Assembly (NCBI RefSeq): GCF_001904745.1
Contig: NZ_MRCD01000008.1
Coordinates: 110,300-174,299, forward strand
Direction: 5' to 3'
Source: Calothrix sp. HK-06
GTDB lineage: Bacteria > Cyanobacteriota > Cyanobacteriia > Cyanobacteriales > Nostocaceae
DNA length: 64,000 nt
A program made the position numbers and the translations under genes. The notes beneath the pieces are model-generated. The model searched no databases, was not told the DNA's origin, and saw only the letters and a list, made by a program, of their open reading frames with translations. Shown one piece after another: positions 43,020 to 49,063 of the stretch. Positions within the stretch are counted from its first letter, which is position 1, and every line of letters begins with the position of its first letter.

Positions 43020-44660
43020 ATGCAATTTAACTACACCTACAAAAACAACACAACCGTCCAAGAAAATGGCGCCAACACCCAAATGTCATTTTCACCTGAC
43101 ACCACCCGTCCCCCAACATACTTCATCGGCGAACTACGACAAAACATAGCATTTCGCGAAGCAATAAGCGCCCTACATGATGTTGTCATCTCCGACCTAC
43201 GTTTCAAACCCAAAGACAAAACAGCATACAAAGAATGGCGCCAACAACAAGAAGACCTCAACTGGGACTTAATAGCAGCAATGCGTCAAGACGTAACAGC
43301 AAAAATTCAAACCCTGCAACAAGAATACAACCAACTAACCAAACAAAGTTACGAAAGAATGGCGCCATTTTACACAGCCAGACAAAAATACTTTAACTAC
43401 CTATACGAAAAAGACCTAGACGCATGGTTTGTCCTCGACCCAGTAATCACAGTACATCCAGACGAAGTATTCTTTGAATGTTTTAGTATAGACGAATCAA
43501 GCTACGGGCGCCTAAGTGCCAGCTACGAAGTCTTTAAAAACATCAACGAATTTGCTTGCGGAACAACCAACGTAGACTACTCAGCAGCACTATACGAAGA
43601 ATTTCAAAAAATCCGTACCTACAAAACCACCGAACTCAAAGTAGACCCATCTGGCTTTGAAATAGAAACCACCAACGAAGAAGCATACAAAGAAGTAAAA
43701 ATAGACTTACCCGACACCTGGGTACGAGGGTTTCTACAAGTAAGTTCAGCAATGTGCTTACCTACAATCCAATTCGACCTACACCCAACTGACATCTATA
43801 ATATGTGCTTTATACTGCGGCGCCATAAAGAAAAACAAGGCCCCCGCAGTATGCGCTACCATCTCGAACCAGGGAAACCCATCCGTATCGTATTTGAACC
43901 GTGGAACATCGAAGTAATCTGTCCCCGTTCACCATACCTTGGTTCAGAACCACAAACAATAAGAGTATGGGGACGTAGGCGCCTCTTAATCCTCGAACGT
44001 CTCATACCCATAGCCAAAAAATTCACCGTTCATCTACTAGGAACAGGAATGCCATCATTTTACATCTCTGACTTGGGCGACATGTCATTCACCCTAGGAC
44101 TATCAGGATGGACAGCAAACGACTGGTCAACATCAGGAAACTTCGACTTGATGGCACCGCGCGCAGATGTAGACGAATGGACACAAAAACAAATCTTTAA
44201 CGCGCTACATGAAAACTGGGTAGAAACAGCAGACGATTTAGCAAAACGACTAAAATTAAGTCGCGCCGCTATTACAGGCGCATTAAGTGTTTACACACAA
44301 GCAGGACGTGTAATATACGACTTAAATAAAAAAGTTTATCGTATTCGTGAACTTAGTCGTGACCCCTTACCAATGGACAGATTACGCTTTGCAAACGAAC
44401 GAGAAGAAGGCGCCACAAAGTTTTTAGCGAACAACGCCATTCAAATAACATCAGTCGATGACAGCAATAATAGACTAACAATACAAGGTAATGTTAAAGA
44501 TAAACAAAAAACTTACACACCATCTTTGACGATTGATAATGACGAGCGTATAATTGGAGCAGAGTGTACTTGTAACTGGCACCAACAAAACAAACTGTTC
44601 AAAGGGCCATGCGAGCATATTCTGGCACTACGAATGCAACATAGTCGTGGGCGCCAATAG
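43020..44660 (+). CDS. Winged-helix–SWIM zinc-finger protein, retron-associated (WHSWIM component)
   Basis: A 546-residue protein. The first 390 residues are mixed alpha-beta and unnamed. A winged helix follows at about 395-455 (QIFNALHENWVETADDLAKR and AAITGALSVYTQAGRVIYDL). The C-terminal SWIM motif is complete: Cys516-x-Cys518, then Cys531-x-His533 in GPCEHILALR. SWIM fingers bind DNA or proteins. It lies 21 bases after the ARM-repeat gene (probable operon). Its stop is only eight bases before the first retron RNA, so the RNA may come from the same transcript. The pairing agrees with type XIII retrons as I remember them. Enzymatic activity is not evident. Confidence 0.83.
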   Translation: MQFNYTYKNNTTVQENGANTQMSFSPDTTRPPTYFIGELRQNIAFREAISALHDVVISDLRFKPKDKTAYKEWRQQQEDLNWDLIAAMRQDVTAKIQTLQQEYNQLTKQSYERMAPFYTARQKYFNYLYEKDLDAWFVLDPVITVHPDEVFFECFSIDESSYGRLSASYEVFKNINEFACGTTNVDYSAALYEEFQKIRTYKTTELKVDPSGFEIETTNEEAYKEVKIDLPDTWVRGFLQVSSAMCLPTIQFDLHPTDIYNMCFILRRHKEKQGPRSMRYHLEPGKPIRIVFEPWNIEVICPRSPYLGSEPQTIRVWGRRRLLILERLIPIAKKFTVHLLGTGMPSFYISDLGDMSFTLGLSGWTANDWSTSGNFDLMAPRADVDEWTQKQIFNALHENWVETADDLAKRLKLSRAAITGALSVYTQAGRVIYDLNKKVYRIRELSRDPLPMDRLRFANEREEGATKFLANNAIQITSVDDSNNRLTIQGNVKDKQKTYTPSLTIDNDERIIGAECTCNWHQQNKLFKGPCEHILALRMQHSRGRQ

Positions 44661-44667
44661 ATAAATA

Positions 44668-44901
44668 ATCGTGTAAGCGCGCTGGTAAAGATTCCTTGCA
44701 AATTGGGCGGTGTATCGCCGTCCGTGCATTCAGTCTAAACGCGCATCACTAGTCTACTCTTGACTGTGCGGTCTTACAGCACTACCCGTTATTCCGGTGT
44801 GACTTTCATAAAGTGAATGAAACGGGTAGTGCTGTGACCGCTTGAGTTGAGTAACCTAGTCCCCAGAGATTTACGAAGGGAAACCAGCGCACCTGCACGA
44901 T
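44668..44901 (+). ncRNA. Retron msr-msd RNA, copy A
   Basis: The copy is defined by comparison with 47290-47535. The ends pair as a1 (44668-44686) with a2 (44883-44901): 19 positions with a few mismatches. The msr core 44695-44772 is 61/78 identical, ungapped, to 47321-47398. It keeps two small hairpins, one around GGTGTAT and one around CACTAGTC. The msd hairpin has a 5' arm 44768-44790 and a 3' arm 44821-44841: a six-base foot, a TT bulge, a 15-base stem and a 30-base loop. The 3' flank 44837-44878 is 36/42 identical to copy B. It has no adjacent reverse transcriptase of its own. Confidence 0.86.
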
Positions 44902-44927
44902 ATTTTCGTAAGTTATTTTAATCGTAG

Positions 44928-44986
44928 GGTGCGTGACGCAACGAAAAAATTTCAACCTAGTTATAAGACTTGTAGCGTCACGCACC
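44928..44986. repeat. GGTGCGTGACGC inverted repeat
   Basis: Exact 12-base arms (44928-44939 and 44975-44986) around a 35-base spacer, just after retron RNA copy A and before the convergent peptidoglycan-binding gene. It belongs to the same family as 16290-16351 and 56995-57054 and could serve as a terminator for both flanking transcripts. Confidence 0.8.
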
Positions 44987-45002
44987 GCTCTTGTAATTAT
45001 GA

Positions 45003-45512
45003 TTAACACCCACCATAATAAGTAGCAAAACAGCGCTCAACATGAGAATCAAGTTTAATTAAAGCATCCCAAGACTTAGCGCCAACAACACCATCAGCAG
45101 TTAAACCAGCATAAGCTTGAAAATCCTTCACAGCTTGCACAGTCTTAGCCCCAAGCACACCATCAATAGCACCATTATAAAAACCAGCCGCAGACAAAGC
45201 TTCTTGAAGAGACTTCACAACACTTCCAGAACTATTTAACTTCAAAACAGGTAAACTAGCGGCGCCATCGCAAATAAAATTCCAAGTAGCAGCATCAGTA
45301 ACGCCAGTATTATTAATAAAACCAAGACATTGTAAATATCTAACAGCAGTCTCAGTTCCGGCGCCAAAATCACCATCAACATCAATTTCCAAAGCAGGAC
45401 TATAAATAGCAGCCAAACGTTGATTCAAACGCTTTTGCATCTCCTTAACATCTTGACCATTATTACCAAGTCTTAAAGTAGGCTTAAAAGTAGGGCATTG
45501 AATAGCAGTCAT
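45003..45512 (-). CDS. Double peptidoglycan-binding-domain (PG_binding_1) protein
   Basis: A 169-residue protein with two tandem PG_binding_1 three-helix domains. The first (about 13-80) has LRLGNNGQDVKEMQKRLNQR and DGDFGAGTETAVRYLQ. The second (about 88-152) has LNSSGSVVKSLQEALSAAGF and DGVLGAKTVQAVKDFQ. There is no catalytic domain and no signal peptide, so it is not an obvious exported wall hydrolase. The short C-terminus has two Cys (RCFATYYGGC). It lies on the minus strand between the two retron RNAs, 110 bases after the Tudor-knot-like gene, and looks inserted into the retron locus. Confidence 0.87.
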   Translation of the reverse strand: MTAIQCPTFKPTLRLGNNGQDVKEMQKRLNQRLAAIYSPALEIDVDGDFGAGTETAVRYLQCLGFINNTGVTDAATWNFICDGAASLPVLKLNSSGSVVKSLQEALSAAGFYNGAIDGVLGAKTVQAVKDFQAYAGLTADGVVGAKSWDALIKLDSHVERCFATYYGGC

Positions 45513-45587
45513 GATTTTAATCTCAACAAGTTTTTAATTTACATAACTAAACTACAAGCACCCTCAAGACAATTCCAGAAAAATAAT

Positions 45588-45605
45588 GGTACCCTCAAGG
45601 GTACC
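45588..45605 (-). terminator. Hairpin terminator of the Tudor-knot-like gene
   Basis: Exact seven-base arms GGTACCC and GGGTACC around a four-base loop, followed on the minus strand by ATTATTTTT. It lies 18 bases past the stop of the 45623-46933 gene, the proper place for an intrinsic terminator. Confidence 0.78.
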
Positions 45606-45622
45606 TTACTGTTTAATAAAAA

Positions 45623-46933
45623 TTAGCACATTTCATCCAAATCAACCCATTCATCGTAAGATGAATCGTAACCAATATACTGCACAAAATATTGCTGACC
45701 TTGGGTTTTTCCAATAATTGCTGAATACCAATCTTCATTATCTTCATCCCAAACTTTGACTTTATCACCGACCGCGTACCCATTTTCATCAGAGGAACTT
45801 TGGTTACGAATACGGATATCTTCCTCATCAACCCATTCATCACCAGATGAACCTTGACCAACGTAATGTACAAAAAACCGCTTCTCTTCCATTTTCTCAA
45901 TCGTTGCTCGGTACCAATCCTCTTCTTCTGAATCCCAAACCTCTATTGTTTGACCTAACGCATACTTATTGGTTGTATCTGAGCTTGCAGCAGATAAAAC
46001 ATCTTGTGGAGCTTTTGGAACTGCTTGAATTTCTGCCTTGGCTAAAGCATGAGCTTGCAAAATCAACTTACGAGCTACTGTTTGAATTCCTGTATGTTCG
46101 TAATAATTAGTAGTTTGGTCTAAGAATGCAGCTACAAAATCTAAGTTATCATCTGCAATTTGAATAAAATTACCCAAATTGCTAAAAATGGATTGGGGTG
46201 TTACACCTGTCTTAGAAACTAAATTACCCATCCAACCCTGTACCGAGTTAAAACCCTGAGTCACAAAACCCAGTTTATCAGAAGGGCTACCACCTGGAAG
46301 AGAACTGCTAATAGTTGAGAAAAGAGGATTTTGAGTAATTACGCTTGTATCGGCGCCTTGTATAATTTCTTGAATTTTGGTGAGAAAATCAGGACCTAAA
46401 GGTAAAATTCCATCAAGACAAACCAAAGCAACCATCCGCATTAAAGACGCATCTTGGTAGTGATTGCCGAGAGAATTAGCAAATTCTTGTGGATTTGGTT
46501 GTGGAATACCGTTGAGTTTGGAAAAAGCAATGATTTCAATTGCGATTTTTAAAACTAAATCAATTGTTTGAGTTACATCTGCCTTGGGAGTAATGTTGCT
46601 CAAAAAAGAGAGAAAGCCAATTTTTTCGCCAACTTTATTTGCTAAGGCAGCCGTTGCCATCGCCGTATCAGCTTTATCAATCGTTTGATACAATCTTACC
46701 GCTGTTTGGTAGCCTTGTTGTGGGTCTTCATACAAGCTAACAGCGTTCTGACGAATTTTTTGAATTACATTAGCATCGGTTTCTCCCGTAATAGTACGGA
46801 TACTATTGTCAAATCCCAGCAAATTACTCCACTGACCTGGCGCCACAAAATCAAGAGCCTTTAATACTTTGACAGTAATATTATCATTGGGTAACTCATC
46901 AATCAATTGAATTATAGATTTATCCATAGCCAA
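45623..46933 (-). CDS. Helical protein with two C-terminal Tudor-knot/Agenet-like domains
   Basis: A 436-residue protein. Residues 1-310 are mainly helical with Ile/Leu-rich amphipathic stretches; I do not recognise a family. The C-terminal 110 residues hold two copies of a barrel of about 50 residues: IEVWDSEEEDWYRATIEK…FFVHYVGQGSSGDEWVDEED and VKVWDEDNEDWYSAIIGK…YFVQYIGYDSSYDEWVDLDE. This WDxxxxDWYxAxI…Y.G…DEWV pattern is that of Tudor-knot/Agenet/chromo-barrel domains, which in eukaryotes bind modified histones or RNA. It sits between the two retron RNAs on the opposite strand. A link to retron RNA is speculative. Confidence 0.78.
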   Translation of the reverse strand: MAMDKSIIQLIDELPNDNITVKVLKALDFVAPGQWSNLLGFDNSIRTITGETDANVIQKIRQNAVSLYEDPQQGYQTAVRLYQTIDKADTAMATAALANKVGEKIGFLSFLSNITPKADVTQTIDLVLKIAIEIIAFSKLNGIPQPNPQEFANSLGNHYQDASLMRMVALVCLDGILPLGPDFLTKIQEIIQGADTSVITQNPLFSTISSSLPGGSPSDKLGFVTQGFNSVQGWMGNLVSKTGVTPQSIFSNLGNFIQIADDNLDFVAAFLDQTTNYYEHTGIQTVARKLILQAHALAKAEIQAVPKAPQDVLSAASSDTTNKYALGQTIEVWDSEEEDWYRATIEKMEEKRFFVHYVGQGSSGDEWVDEEDIRIRNQSSSDENGYAVGDKVKVWDEDNEDWYSAIIGKTQGQQYFVQYIGYDSSYDEWVDLDEMC

Positions 46934-47289
46934 TTATTAAATCCTCACATAGTGTTTACTATCACAATCAAATTCAGGCGTGTCCAGAAAGTAACACAAT
47001 TAACTGAACCTATTACTAGGGTTCCCATATATGGAAGCAAAATAACTTTTTATTACTAATTTTAAGATTCATTACAAACAACCTGTAATATAATAATACA
47101 TCTGTAAAATAATCCTATTTTCTATTGGGCATGTGCTGCCATAAATTCAAAGGCGCCAATAATCTAACAATCTTCTTATAAAATGATTGAAACTAAAATG
47201 ATTGAAACCTAGAAGCATATTTATAGTTGTGAAAAAAATATTTTTCCTCCACACCTACCCAAAATAGGGAGACTGCGAATACACTGGAT
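46934..47289. other. Spacer upstream of retron RNA copy B
   Basis: About 350 bases between the divergent Tudor-knot-like gene and retron RNA B. It holds a 14-base direct repeat (47181-47194 and 47195-47208, AAATGATTGAAAC-like) and an A/T-run palindrome near 47229-47246. The promoter for the RNA and RT presumably lies here. No gene is seen. Confidence 0.5.
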
Positions 47290-47535
47290 AAAGCTCACGC
47301 GGATTATCAGCGAGTAACAACTTGCAACCCGGACGGTGTATCGTCGTCCATGCATTAAGCCCTAACATACTTCACTAGTCTGTTCTTTACTGTGCGGTAC
47401 TTCACCTAGGGGTGACATATACAGTTCGATTTCCTAGAAATTATAATGTCACCCCTAGGTGGTACCGCTTGAGTTGACCAGCCTAGTCCCCAGTAACTTA
47501 CGAAGATAAACTTGCTAATAACCCGCGTCAGCTTT
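47290..47535 (+). ncRNA. Retron msr-msd RNA, copy B (next to the reverse transcriptase)
   Basis: The a1 end (47290-47314) pairs with a2 (47511-47535) over 25 positions with few mismatches. The msr core 47321-47398 keeps the GGACG…CGTCC hairpin and the CACTAGT…ACTGTG hairpin. The msd hairpin has a 5' arm 47394-47418 and a 3' arm 47446-47468, with the perfect foot GCGGTAC/GTACCGC, a TT bulge at the same place as in copy A, a 16-base stem and a 27-base loop. The 3' flank 47464-47505 is shared with copy A. The RT starts 121 bases downstream. The branching G was not assigned. The folded ends, conserved core and variable hairpin are the marks of a retron RNA. Confidence 0.9.
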
Positions 47536-47656
47536 ACTCTATATTTGCTTATATATACATCTTTCTGTACGGGCGGGTTAACCTAAATTTTTCATTATAA
47601 AGCAGGATATAGATAAACCCGCCCCCAACAATAACTCTTCATTCTGCACTACCGTT

Positions 47657-49063
47657 ATGTCTGACCAACCTCGCACCCGTCAGGAACTCTACGACCGCAT
47701 TCGCCAAACAGGAAAAGACGAATTTATCCTGGAAGAAATGATACGTTTCGGATTTTGGGCGCCCCAAGGCACAATACCCGAAGACCCAGCAGACGAAATT
47801 CGGCGCCAAGGAGAAATACGACGCGAGTTAGAAACACTACGTCAGCAAAGTAGTCAGCTTCGCAATGAAAAAGAATTGCGAAAGCAAATGTTAAAGCAGC
47901 GTTTAGAAGAGTCGCGACGTAAGCAGAAAGAAACCAAAGAGCGACGCGAACAAGAGCGCCTCGAACGCGCAGCAGCATGGCAAGAGAAAAGACAGAAAGA
48001 TATCATCTACCTTGGGGAAGATGTATCAGGCGGGTTAAATAACACTGAAGCAAACATCGAAAGATTGCAAAGTCATAACTTACCACTTTGCAACACAGCC
48101 CTAGAAATTGCAGAAGCAATGGGAGTCACTATTGGCAAACTCCGTTTCTTAGCCTTCAACCGTAAAACTTCCACAATATCTCATTATATTCGCTTCAAAG
48201 TTCCCAAAAAAACAGGTGGAGAAAGACTAATATCGGCGCCAATGCCTAACCTCAAGCAAGCACAATACTGGATATTAGAAAACATACTTAATAAACTCGA
48301 AGTACACGATGCTGCACATGGGTTTCGCGAAAATCGTTCTATTATCACCAACGCAACCCCCCACGTCGGCGCCGATGTTATCATAAACTTCGACCTCAAA
48401 GACTTTTTCCCATCAATATCTTACAAACGTGTCAAAGGACTATTTCAAAGCTTTGGTTACTCAGAAGCAGCAGCAACAATTTTTGGCTTAATTTGTACCG
48501 CTGCCGAAATTGAACAAGTCGAACTCGACGGTACAACATATTACGTAGCTTTAGATGACAGACACCTTCCCCAAGGTTCACCCGCAAGTCCAGCCATTAC
48601 TAACTTACTCTGTCGTCGTTTAGACCGACGTTTACAAGGTATGGCAGAAAATATTGGATTTACCTATAGTCGTTACGCGGATGATTTAACCTTCTCAGCC
48701 AAAAGCGAAAATCGGCACCACATATGTAATATCATGAGACGCACAGAATCAATAGTAACCCACGAAGGTTTCAACATAAATCACGATAAAACTCGCGTTC
48801 TGCGTAACACAAATCAGCAAGAAGTTACAGGCATCATCGTCAACGACAAATTAAATATATCCAAAAAAGTCCTCAAGAAATTTCGTGCCACCTTACACCA
48901 AATCGAACAAGAAGGACTTCAAGGAAAATATTGGGGCACTTCCCATGATACACTTGCAGCAATCACCGGATTTGCCAACTTCGTTGCAATGGTCAACCCC
49001 GAAAAAGGCGCCGAATTTCAACAGCAAGTGCAACGCATCAAAAAGAAATATAAACGCAAATAA
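47657..49063 (+). CDS. Retron reverse transcriptase
   Basis: A 468-residue protein. Residues 1-135 are an extra N-terminal region with a charged coiled coil (RRELETLRQQSSQLRNEKEL). The RT follows: motif A NFDLKDFFPS (Asp246), QGSPASPAITN at 306-316, the catalytic YADDLTFS (Tyr340-Asp343), and the retron-specific VTGIIVND starting at Val390. The polymerase makes msDNA by copying the msd part of its RNA, primed from a branching G. RNA copy B lies directly upstream; the ARM and WHSWIM genes lie further up. It contains five GGCGCC copies, so it is well adapted to this genome. The usual retron role, phage defence, is inference. Confidence 0.93.
   Translation: MSDQPRTRQELYDRIRQTGKDEFILEEMIRFGFWAPQGTIPEDPADEIRRQGEIRRELETLRQQSSQLRNEKELRKQMLKQRLEESRRKQKETKERREQERLERAAAWQEKRQKDIIYLGEDVSGGLNNTEANIERLQSHNLPLCNTALEIAEAMGVTIGKLRFLAFNRKTSTISHYIRFKVPKKTGGERLISAPMPNLKQAQYWILENILNKLEVHDAAHGFRENRSIITNATPHVGADVIINFDLKDFFPSISYKRVKGLFQSFGYSEAAATIFGLICTAAEIEQVELDGTTYYVALDDRHLPQGSPASPAITNLLCRRLDRRLQGMAENIGFTYSRYADDLTFSAKSENRHHICNIMRRTESIVTHEGFNINHDKTRVLRNTNQQEVTGIIVNDKLNISKKVLKKFRATLHQIEQEGLQGKYWGTSHDTLAAITGFANFVAMVNPEKGAEFQQQVQRIKKKYKRK

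Follow-up and report, generated by a model that had tools for sequence, protein, structure and literature searches.

A Type XIII Retron of Calothrix With Two msr–msd RNA Genes Beside One Reverse Transcriptase Gene

Two Intact msr–msd Genes at One Retron Locus

In a 64,000-nucleotide stretch of the genome of Calothrix sp. HK-06 (contig NZ_MRCD01000008.1, positions 110,300–174,299; hereafter the window), we analyzed a retron in which two non-coding RNA (ncRNA) genes of the msr–msd type, copy A and copy B, lie beside a single reverse transcriptase (RT) gene. By its PADLOC matches (WGR_XIII, SWIM_XIII, and RT_XIII, all on one strand), the locus is a type XIII retron, here a predicted anti-phage system. 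The product of a retron is multicopy single-stranded DNA (msDNA), joined 2′–5′ to a branching G. Sequence comparison shows that both msr–msd genes are structurally intact, and the single RT is likely to copy both into two msDNAs with different hairpins. An earlier reading made from the letters alone (the sequence-only reading) had proposed one RT beside two intact, differently sequenced msr–msd genes, and our results support this proposal.

The msr cores of the two copies (44,695–44,772 and 47,321–47,398) are identical at 61 of 78 positions without gaps, and the 3′ flanks (44,837–44,878 and 47,464–47,505) at 36 of 42, which confirms the earlier counts to the base. This likeness cannot be attributed to chance, because the best ungapped match to the core of copy A in the rest of the window, outside 44,601–47,700, was only 36/78 on the forward strand and 35/78 on the reverse strand. 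The msd hairpins are unrelated in sequence: the stretches of 64 and 65 bases aligned no better than shuffled sequences, 119 of 1,000 of which reached the same score. Each copy has its own paired a1/a2 ends (Table 1), and no dinucleotide shuffle among 200 folded as well as either copy. Both spans also fit the covariance model R1 (56 RNAs, 195 positions, 42 pairs), whose training set includes the two copies. Thirty of the 42 pairs in the family alignment have at least one double-sided change, and both RNAs retain the conserved msr core, foot, loop region, and a1/a2 pairing of the family. A search of the window with Rfam gave no match at gathering scores; the eight sub-threshold matches, all far below these scores, were to microRNA models, one long non-coding RNA model, and one small RNA model. 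Both copies therefore have what defines a retron RNA, an msr–msd with complementary a1/a2 ends, although the locus departs from the standard cassette of one msr–msd directly upstream of the RT gene.

The RT scored 673.3 bits against RT_XIII and 324.6 bits against the next-best PADLOC family, and the closest solved structure was the RT of retron Ec86 (E = 2e-48). It contains the motifs YADD, NATPH, and VTG, and all three motifs were present in 57 of 57 RTs checked. The type XIII class is said to come from the retron classification of Mestre et al. in 2020, and, as the PADLOC model names indicate, its partner set is a SWIM protein with a WGR/ARM protein. The NAXXH and VTG motifs are given as retron RT motifs in the excerpted text of a review, in which YXDD appears as such in the title of a reference (PMC6868368).

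Conservation of the Two Copies Within the Genus

The main RT was found in six of the seven genomes sampled from the genus. The sequence-only reading had named the decay of copy A in relatives, with a1/a2 ends that no longer pair, as the outcome that would speak against it; copy A proved to be full-length in all six congeneric species with the locus, the window included, and its a1/a2 helix persists. The msr and 3′ flank of copy A are nearly invariant across the six species (0–8 differences in 111 positions), and its msd stem exists in four versions. Seven pairs of this stem have changed on both sides and no stem pair is mispaired, which upholds the earlier claim of selection on structure; one further pair shows a one-sided change from C-G to U-G, and at another the window has a gap. 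The full length of copy A and these compensated pairs led us to reject the idea that it is a degraded copy.

Copy B is full-length in the window and in the loci L036 and L073, with no more than 2–3 differences among them in the 111 positions of the msr and 3′ flank. The B copies of L036 and L073 are distinguished by three paired changes in the foot and stem. In a tree of msr sequences, which was built without L079 and L115, the B copies formed their own clade (100/100) beside the A copies, with 99/95 for all eight rows; the A rows alone were not resolved as a clade. A and B are thus not fresh duplicates, and the B clade, together with remnants of B in L033, L034, and L035, indicates that the duplication predates these species.

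The sequence-only reading had suggested that the unlike hairpins of A and B could, for example, serve to recognize two triggers. The lack of sequence similarity stands, but it is not special to the comparison of A with B, as the stems of orthologous A copies also differ. Because orthologous A copies with near-identical flanks have different stems, the A/B difference alone is no proof of two triggers.

Turnover of the Hairpin Stem

To place these differences in context, stems were compared between locus pairs with an RT fourfold-site divergence of ≤ 0.35. This comparison was made post hoc, and it rests on three multi-copy lineages. In the lineages with one RNA per type XIII RT (Nannocystis, L135/L136, L044/L111/L112, the L117–L129 group, L037/L039, L052/L109/L113, and L134/L116), at most 6 of 48 stem letters differed. 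Within the window's own genus, single-copy members were grouped with two-copy members on account of their loss of B, and 0–17 of about 50 stem letters differed for copy A and 8–32 of about 50–60 for copy B. For example, the A copies of the window and L073 differ at 17 of 50 stem positions and the B copies at 32 of 61, each pair with 3 differences in 111 flank positions. The two-RNA locus L107 differs from its one-RNA sisters at 17 of 48 stem positions, and these sisters agree fully among themselves. Between the genomes G107 and G090, which have two RNAs each, the stem of the RT-adjacent copy is unchanged (0/48) and that of the unlinked copy differs at 16 of 50 positions, with 2 differences in 111 in its flanks. 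On this post hoc evidence, hairpin stems appear to turn over fast in the three multi-copy lineages, although unevenly.

Two-Copy Loci in Other Genomes

Among 388 genomes of the order, 121 had an RT match at E ≤ 1e-60, and the best-scoring 60 places were fetched; those left were lower-scoring, mostly shorter or fused RTs, plus a few good ones. A scan of a genome contig collection added 71 loci, which gave 113 distinct RT loci after the removal of duplicates. An iterated nhmmer profile detected at least one RNA above 50 bits in 57 of these 113 loci. The alignment A2 held 56 of the 62 distinct RNAs, leaving out five RNAs with a long msd and a partial hit of L115. R1 added an RNA in L086, L087, and L088 (60–62 bits) and found none in the other 53 distinct loci (55 sources, two of them duplicates), of which 12 have distant RTs with < 40% identity and some lie on contigs that end close before the RT.

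The search for paired copies elsewhere, which the sequence-only reading had proposed, was successful: two full RNAs were present at 8 of the 57 loci with an nhmmer-detected ncRNA, namely the window, L073 (on the same contig as L108), L036, L082 (Hassallia), L107, L119, L158, and L069, the last being a metagenome-assembled genome of Pyrinomonadaceae with two RNAs in tandem. The eight loci represent six lineages of the RT tree and require eight changes by parsimony. At L142, a full RNA is accompanied by a weak partial hit (17 bits), which was not counted. L107 and L158 each combine an RNA with the usual hairpin (about 66 bases) and an RNA whose msd is long and branched (about 110–120 bases), and in genomes G003 and G024 these short and long kinds are paired after one SWIM gene. 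Pairs of this sort (L107, L158, L207, L208) occur in genomes of four families. A test of a single clade of long-msd RNAs gave p-AU = 0.28; six RNAs (L079, L115, L202, L203, L204, and the long one of L208) had dropped out at the anchor search, and the tree was built after the removal of 11 distant rows.

Numbers of RNAs and RTs per Genome

R1 was also run, with stricter filters, on 80 of the 89 cyanobacterial genomes listed for a match to the type XIII RT or SWIM protein, and the RNA was present in all 80. RT_XIII matches, counted at E limits of 1e-20 to 1e-60, cover type XIII RTs and no other type of retron RT. On this basis, RNAs outnumber RTs in 16 of the 80 genomes, including the genome of the window (G000), which has four RNAs and two RT_XIII matches. 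The ratios are 3/1 in G353, 3/2 in G388, and 3/1 in G390; two RNAs and one RT_XIII were found in G513, G520, G433, G098, G003, G024, G107, G090, G188, G062, G152, and G276. Two RNAs with two RT_XIII matches were found in G392, G150, G125, and G043.

In G000, G353, G388, and G390, one of the RNAs is weaker and follows a WGR gene without a SWIM gene (folds of −65 to −72 kcal/mol); these WGR-linked RNAs may be worn. Without them the count becomes 15/80, because G388 drops out. Such a weaker-folding type XIII-like RNA directly after a SWIM-less WGR gene was seen at G000:C186:1751-1938 (L202) and also at L203, L204, L205, and L213. The genome of the window also carries a second type XIII retron (G000:C25:2938-4344, L152), which has an RT 71% identical to the first and a single long-msd RNA. 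In G520 (L200:3821-13766), a fragmented WGR gene and an RNA are followed by WGR, SWIM, a second RNA, and RT, an order suggesting that the whole unit was duplicated in part.

RNA Genes Distant From the RT

The unit of WGR, SWIM, and RNA is separated from the RT in many of the cyanobacteria examined. On single contigs, the RNA and RT are at 1.86 and 3.05 Mb in G513 (Calothrix parasitica NIES-267 by sequence match), at 5.19 and 3.97 Mb in G515, and at 6.87 and 5.45 Mb in G430, and each of these genomes has one RT_XIII at E ≤ 1e-40. The RNA and RT are on different contigs in G032, G055, G074, and G108, where the contig ends place at least 18 kb between them, and in G165, where they are at least 11 kb apart in any orientation. 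With more than 1 Mb between an RNA and the sole RT_XIII of its contig in three assemblies, the type XIII RT very likely acts in trans, if split retrons work at all. If so, a second RNA gene, whether beside the RT or far from it, would meet no obstacle.

A reverse split, with the RNA beside the RT and the SWIM gene on another contig, was observed in two genomes, G233 and G198 (loci L142, of G233, and L199); no RNA was found on the contig of the SWIM gene in these cases.

Alternative Explanations

Several observations weigh against the view that one RT serves two functional RNAs. Copy B has been deleted to a 5′ remnant in L033, L034, and L035, with one junction common to L033 and L034 and another in L035. 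Because B has been lost in three of the six congeneric loci, it is not essential; by this comparison the losable, accessory copy is B, not A. A single RNA was found within the locus at 49 of the 57 loci, and 60 of the 80 genomes have one RNA in all. In copy A, the last pair before the loop is broken in two of the six sequences, and the a1/a2 helix has a few broken cells (at most two of the six sequences at any pair). When the three B copies are aligned, many msd-stem cells count as broken, since no register is common to the window stem and those of L036 and L073; each of the three folds well alone. The A stem is identical in L033, L034, and L073 (0/48) despite an RT fourfold divergence of 0.14–0.19. 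Scans of the region for promoters and terminators found sites no commoner than in shuffled sequences, of which the promoter result counts here.

The two different deletions of B, and the predominance of single-copy loci, in cyanobacteria usually with the SWIM-linked copy, would be expected if only A works and B is a by-product of duplication on its way out, kept meanwhile since nothing removes it. We consider this unlikely: the surviving B copies are as little diverged in the msr and 3′ flank as described above and fold fully, the differences between those of L036 and L073 include paired changes in the foot and stem, two-copy loci recur in six RT lineages, and G107 and G090 each keep both copies.

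The position of copy B, which ends 123 bases before the start codon of the RT, might instead mean that it acts on the RT gene as a leader or regulator and is not a template, so that only A yields msDNA. This seems quite improbable, as B retains a1/a2, the msr, the foot, and the msd hairpin, more than a leader needs, and an RNA of this kind is missing near many type XIII RT genes (none detected by R1 in the 53 loci scanned).

Another arrangement would be two RTs with one RNA each. Given the two RT_XIII genes of G000, 71% alike, the second one on contig C25 might serve copy A or B. That retron has its own long-msd RNA, and the idea is weakened further because A and B occur together in G353 (L073) and G390 (L036), genomes with only one RT_XIII match each; we give it very little credence.

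The least probable account is that the RNA was doubled when cargo entered, the copies being mainly homologous ends for cargo exchange: A and B do bracket cargo that differs between loci (window, L036, L073, L082, L107, L119), but at least a dozen single-RNA loci also have open reading frames (ORFs) between the RNA and RT, L069 and L158 have two copies with no ATG-initiated ORF of ≥ 90 amino acids between SWIM and RT, and the window copies, only 61/78 identical in the core and with unrelated msd, would make poor recombination ends. As regards carriage by mobile replicons, plasmids and phages were both rejected: an RT at E ≤ 1e-60 was found on 1 of 72,556 plasmid records (Methylobacterium, 49% identity), and at E ≤ 1e-30 only distant RT matches were found, on 6 of 50,697 phage records.

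Gene Content of the Locus

The features of the locus are summarized in Table 1. The a1 arm of copy A begins 8 bases past the stop codon of the SWIM gene. The Pfam SWIM match of the 546-aa protein (E = 8.6e-4) narrowly misses the cut-off, and a comparison of this protein with solved structures gave no match at E ≤ 0.1. A cyanobacterial protein with Tudor-knot, Agenet, and chromo-like matches sits within the retron; tblastn matches to its gene were found in the window, L033, L034, and L035, and none in L036 and L073.

Table 1. Features of the type XIII retron locus (positions in the window; aa, amino acids).
Feature	Position	Strand	Evidence
WGR/HEAT-repeat protein gene, 1045 aa	39861..42998	+	PADLOC WGR_XIII, E = 0, 1258.7 bits; Pfam WGR, HEAT_2
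SWIM zinc-finger protein gene, 546 aa	43020..44660	+	PADLOC SWIM_XIII, 816.3 bits
ncRNA copy A (a1, msr, msd, a2)	44668..44900	+	Fold z = −9.5; R1 192 bits at 44691-44885; full-length in 6/6 congeneric loci including the window
a1 of copy A	44669..44686	+	Fold
msd hairpin of copy A (foot GGTC/GACC, bulge, long stem, loop)	44770..44839	+	Folds; compensated stem pairs
a2 of copy A	44883..44900	+	Fold
Cargo gene flanked by A and B, peptidoglycan-binding protein, 169 aa	45003..45512	-	Pfam PG_binding_1, E = 7.7e-30; present in 6/6 congeneric loci
Cargo gene flanked by A and B, Tudor-knot/Agenet protein, 434 aa	45623..46927	-	Pfam Tudor-knot, E = 2.6e-8
ncRNA copy B (a1, msr, msd, a2)	47292..47533	+	Fold z = −8.8; R1 161 bits at 47317-47512; intact in L036 and L073, deleted in L033, L034, and L035
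a1 of copy B	47292..47315	+	Fold
msd hairpin of copy B (foot GGTAC/GTACC, bulge, 16-bp stem, loop)	47396..47466	+	Folds
a2 of copy B	47510..47533	+	Fold
Retron reverse transcriptase gene, 468 aa	47657..49063	+	PADLOC RT_XIII, 673.3 bits, E = 5.3e-203; RVT_1

At seven other loci (L046, L115, L117, L120, L121, L127, and L129), a gene for an RNase III homologue lies between the RNA and the RT; its Ribonuclease_3 and dsrm domains were identified with Pfam in L046, and the other six loci were assigned by blastp. A NYN-like gene was also found in six of these seven loci, not in L046 (Pfam on L117 only). The RNase III and NYN-like products are possible RNA-processing partners.

Proposed Mechanism and Implications

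We tentatively propose a broader model, possible rather than probable on the sequence data, in which cyanobacterial type XIII retrons are trans-acting, multi-sensor systems: one RT would serve scattered RNA genes with the same msr handle and a fast-changing msd, and duplication would free the hairpin of one copy, so that a small repertoire of sensors could build up on one effector pair. Retrons of the anti-phage kind defend against phages by releasing an effector. For the two-copy locus itself, we favor a likely reading in which the RT would recognize the common msr and 3′ flank and work in trans, so that the distance between RNA and RT would be irrelevant. Each msDNA would join the RT, WGR, and SWIM proteins and hold them inactive. 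The conserved loop and foot would serve the system's own proteins, and the variable stem would be the part on which phage proteins act. An extra copy would let the stem change without loss of the first sensor, and one effector pair could then watch for more than one trigger.

Parts of this reading have precedents in the literature. A review describes the RT as recognizing its msr, the msr and RT being paired, and the msd as able to vary or be replaced (PMC6868368). For retron Kva2, an excerpted report states that a winged-helix protein and the phage trigger both bind the stem-loop of the msdDNA (PMC13405049), and for two other retrons another gives a phage methyltransferase as the trigger and GATC sites on their RNAs (PMC12548924).

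Retrons are treated as one RNA with one RT both in defense biology and in genome editing. If the present reading is true, an RT that by nature serves several RNAs, alike in the msr and free to vary in the msd, would offer a ready-made tool for multiplex DNA writing. What a retron senses could be read from natural experiments, namely pairs of close species in which one hairpin has stayed constant and the other has changed. The results are also a warning for annotation tools that seek the RNA only beside the RT, as in the cyanobacteria examined it often follows a SWIM gene far off.

Comparison With Known Systems

In all three proteins and in the msr–msd RNA with a1/a2, the locus resembles a type XIII retron; it differs in having two RNAs with unlike msd and one RT, and in relatives the RNA can be more than 1 Mb from the RT. 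The nearest precedent, known by titles, is in Nannocystis exedens, where msDNA-like repeats, including a partial copy in the chromosome, were reportedly described by Lampson and Rice in 1997 and Lampson in 2002 and put down to retrotransposition. The copies described here differ from those repeats in being full-length RNA genes with their own a1/a2 ends and compensated stems. The type XIII loci of Nannocystis analyzed here have one RNA each (5/5, within the loci only). A full-text literature search, judged by titles and the beginnings of abstracts, returned nothing on two ncRNAs per retron RT or on an RNA apart from its RT; the classification paper and a retron census, both outside the search, may mention them.

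Retron Kva2 (type IX) also has a DNA-binding partner protein, and the stem-loop of its msdDNA is both sensor and docking site; its effectors are different, and a second ncRNA is not described for it in the excerpted report (PMC13405049). Retron-Sda1 and Retron-Bth1 are likewise retrons interrupted or rearranged by intervening genes, but the latter are a HipA/DUF3037 system or a group II intron, and the excerpted text mentions no second ncRNA (PMC12548924). Finally, the cross-acting retron RTs of Vibrio and E. coli, which according to the excerpted review can copy a non-cognate msr–msd (PMC6868368), resemble the action proposed here for one RT on two RNAs; there the RNAs belong to separate, related retrons, whereas here two RNA genes stand beside one RT.

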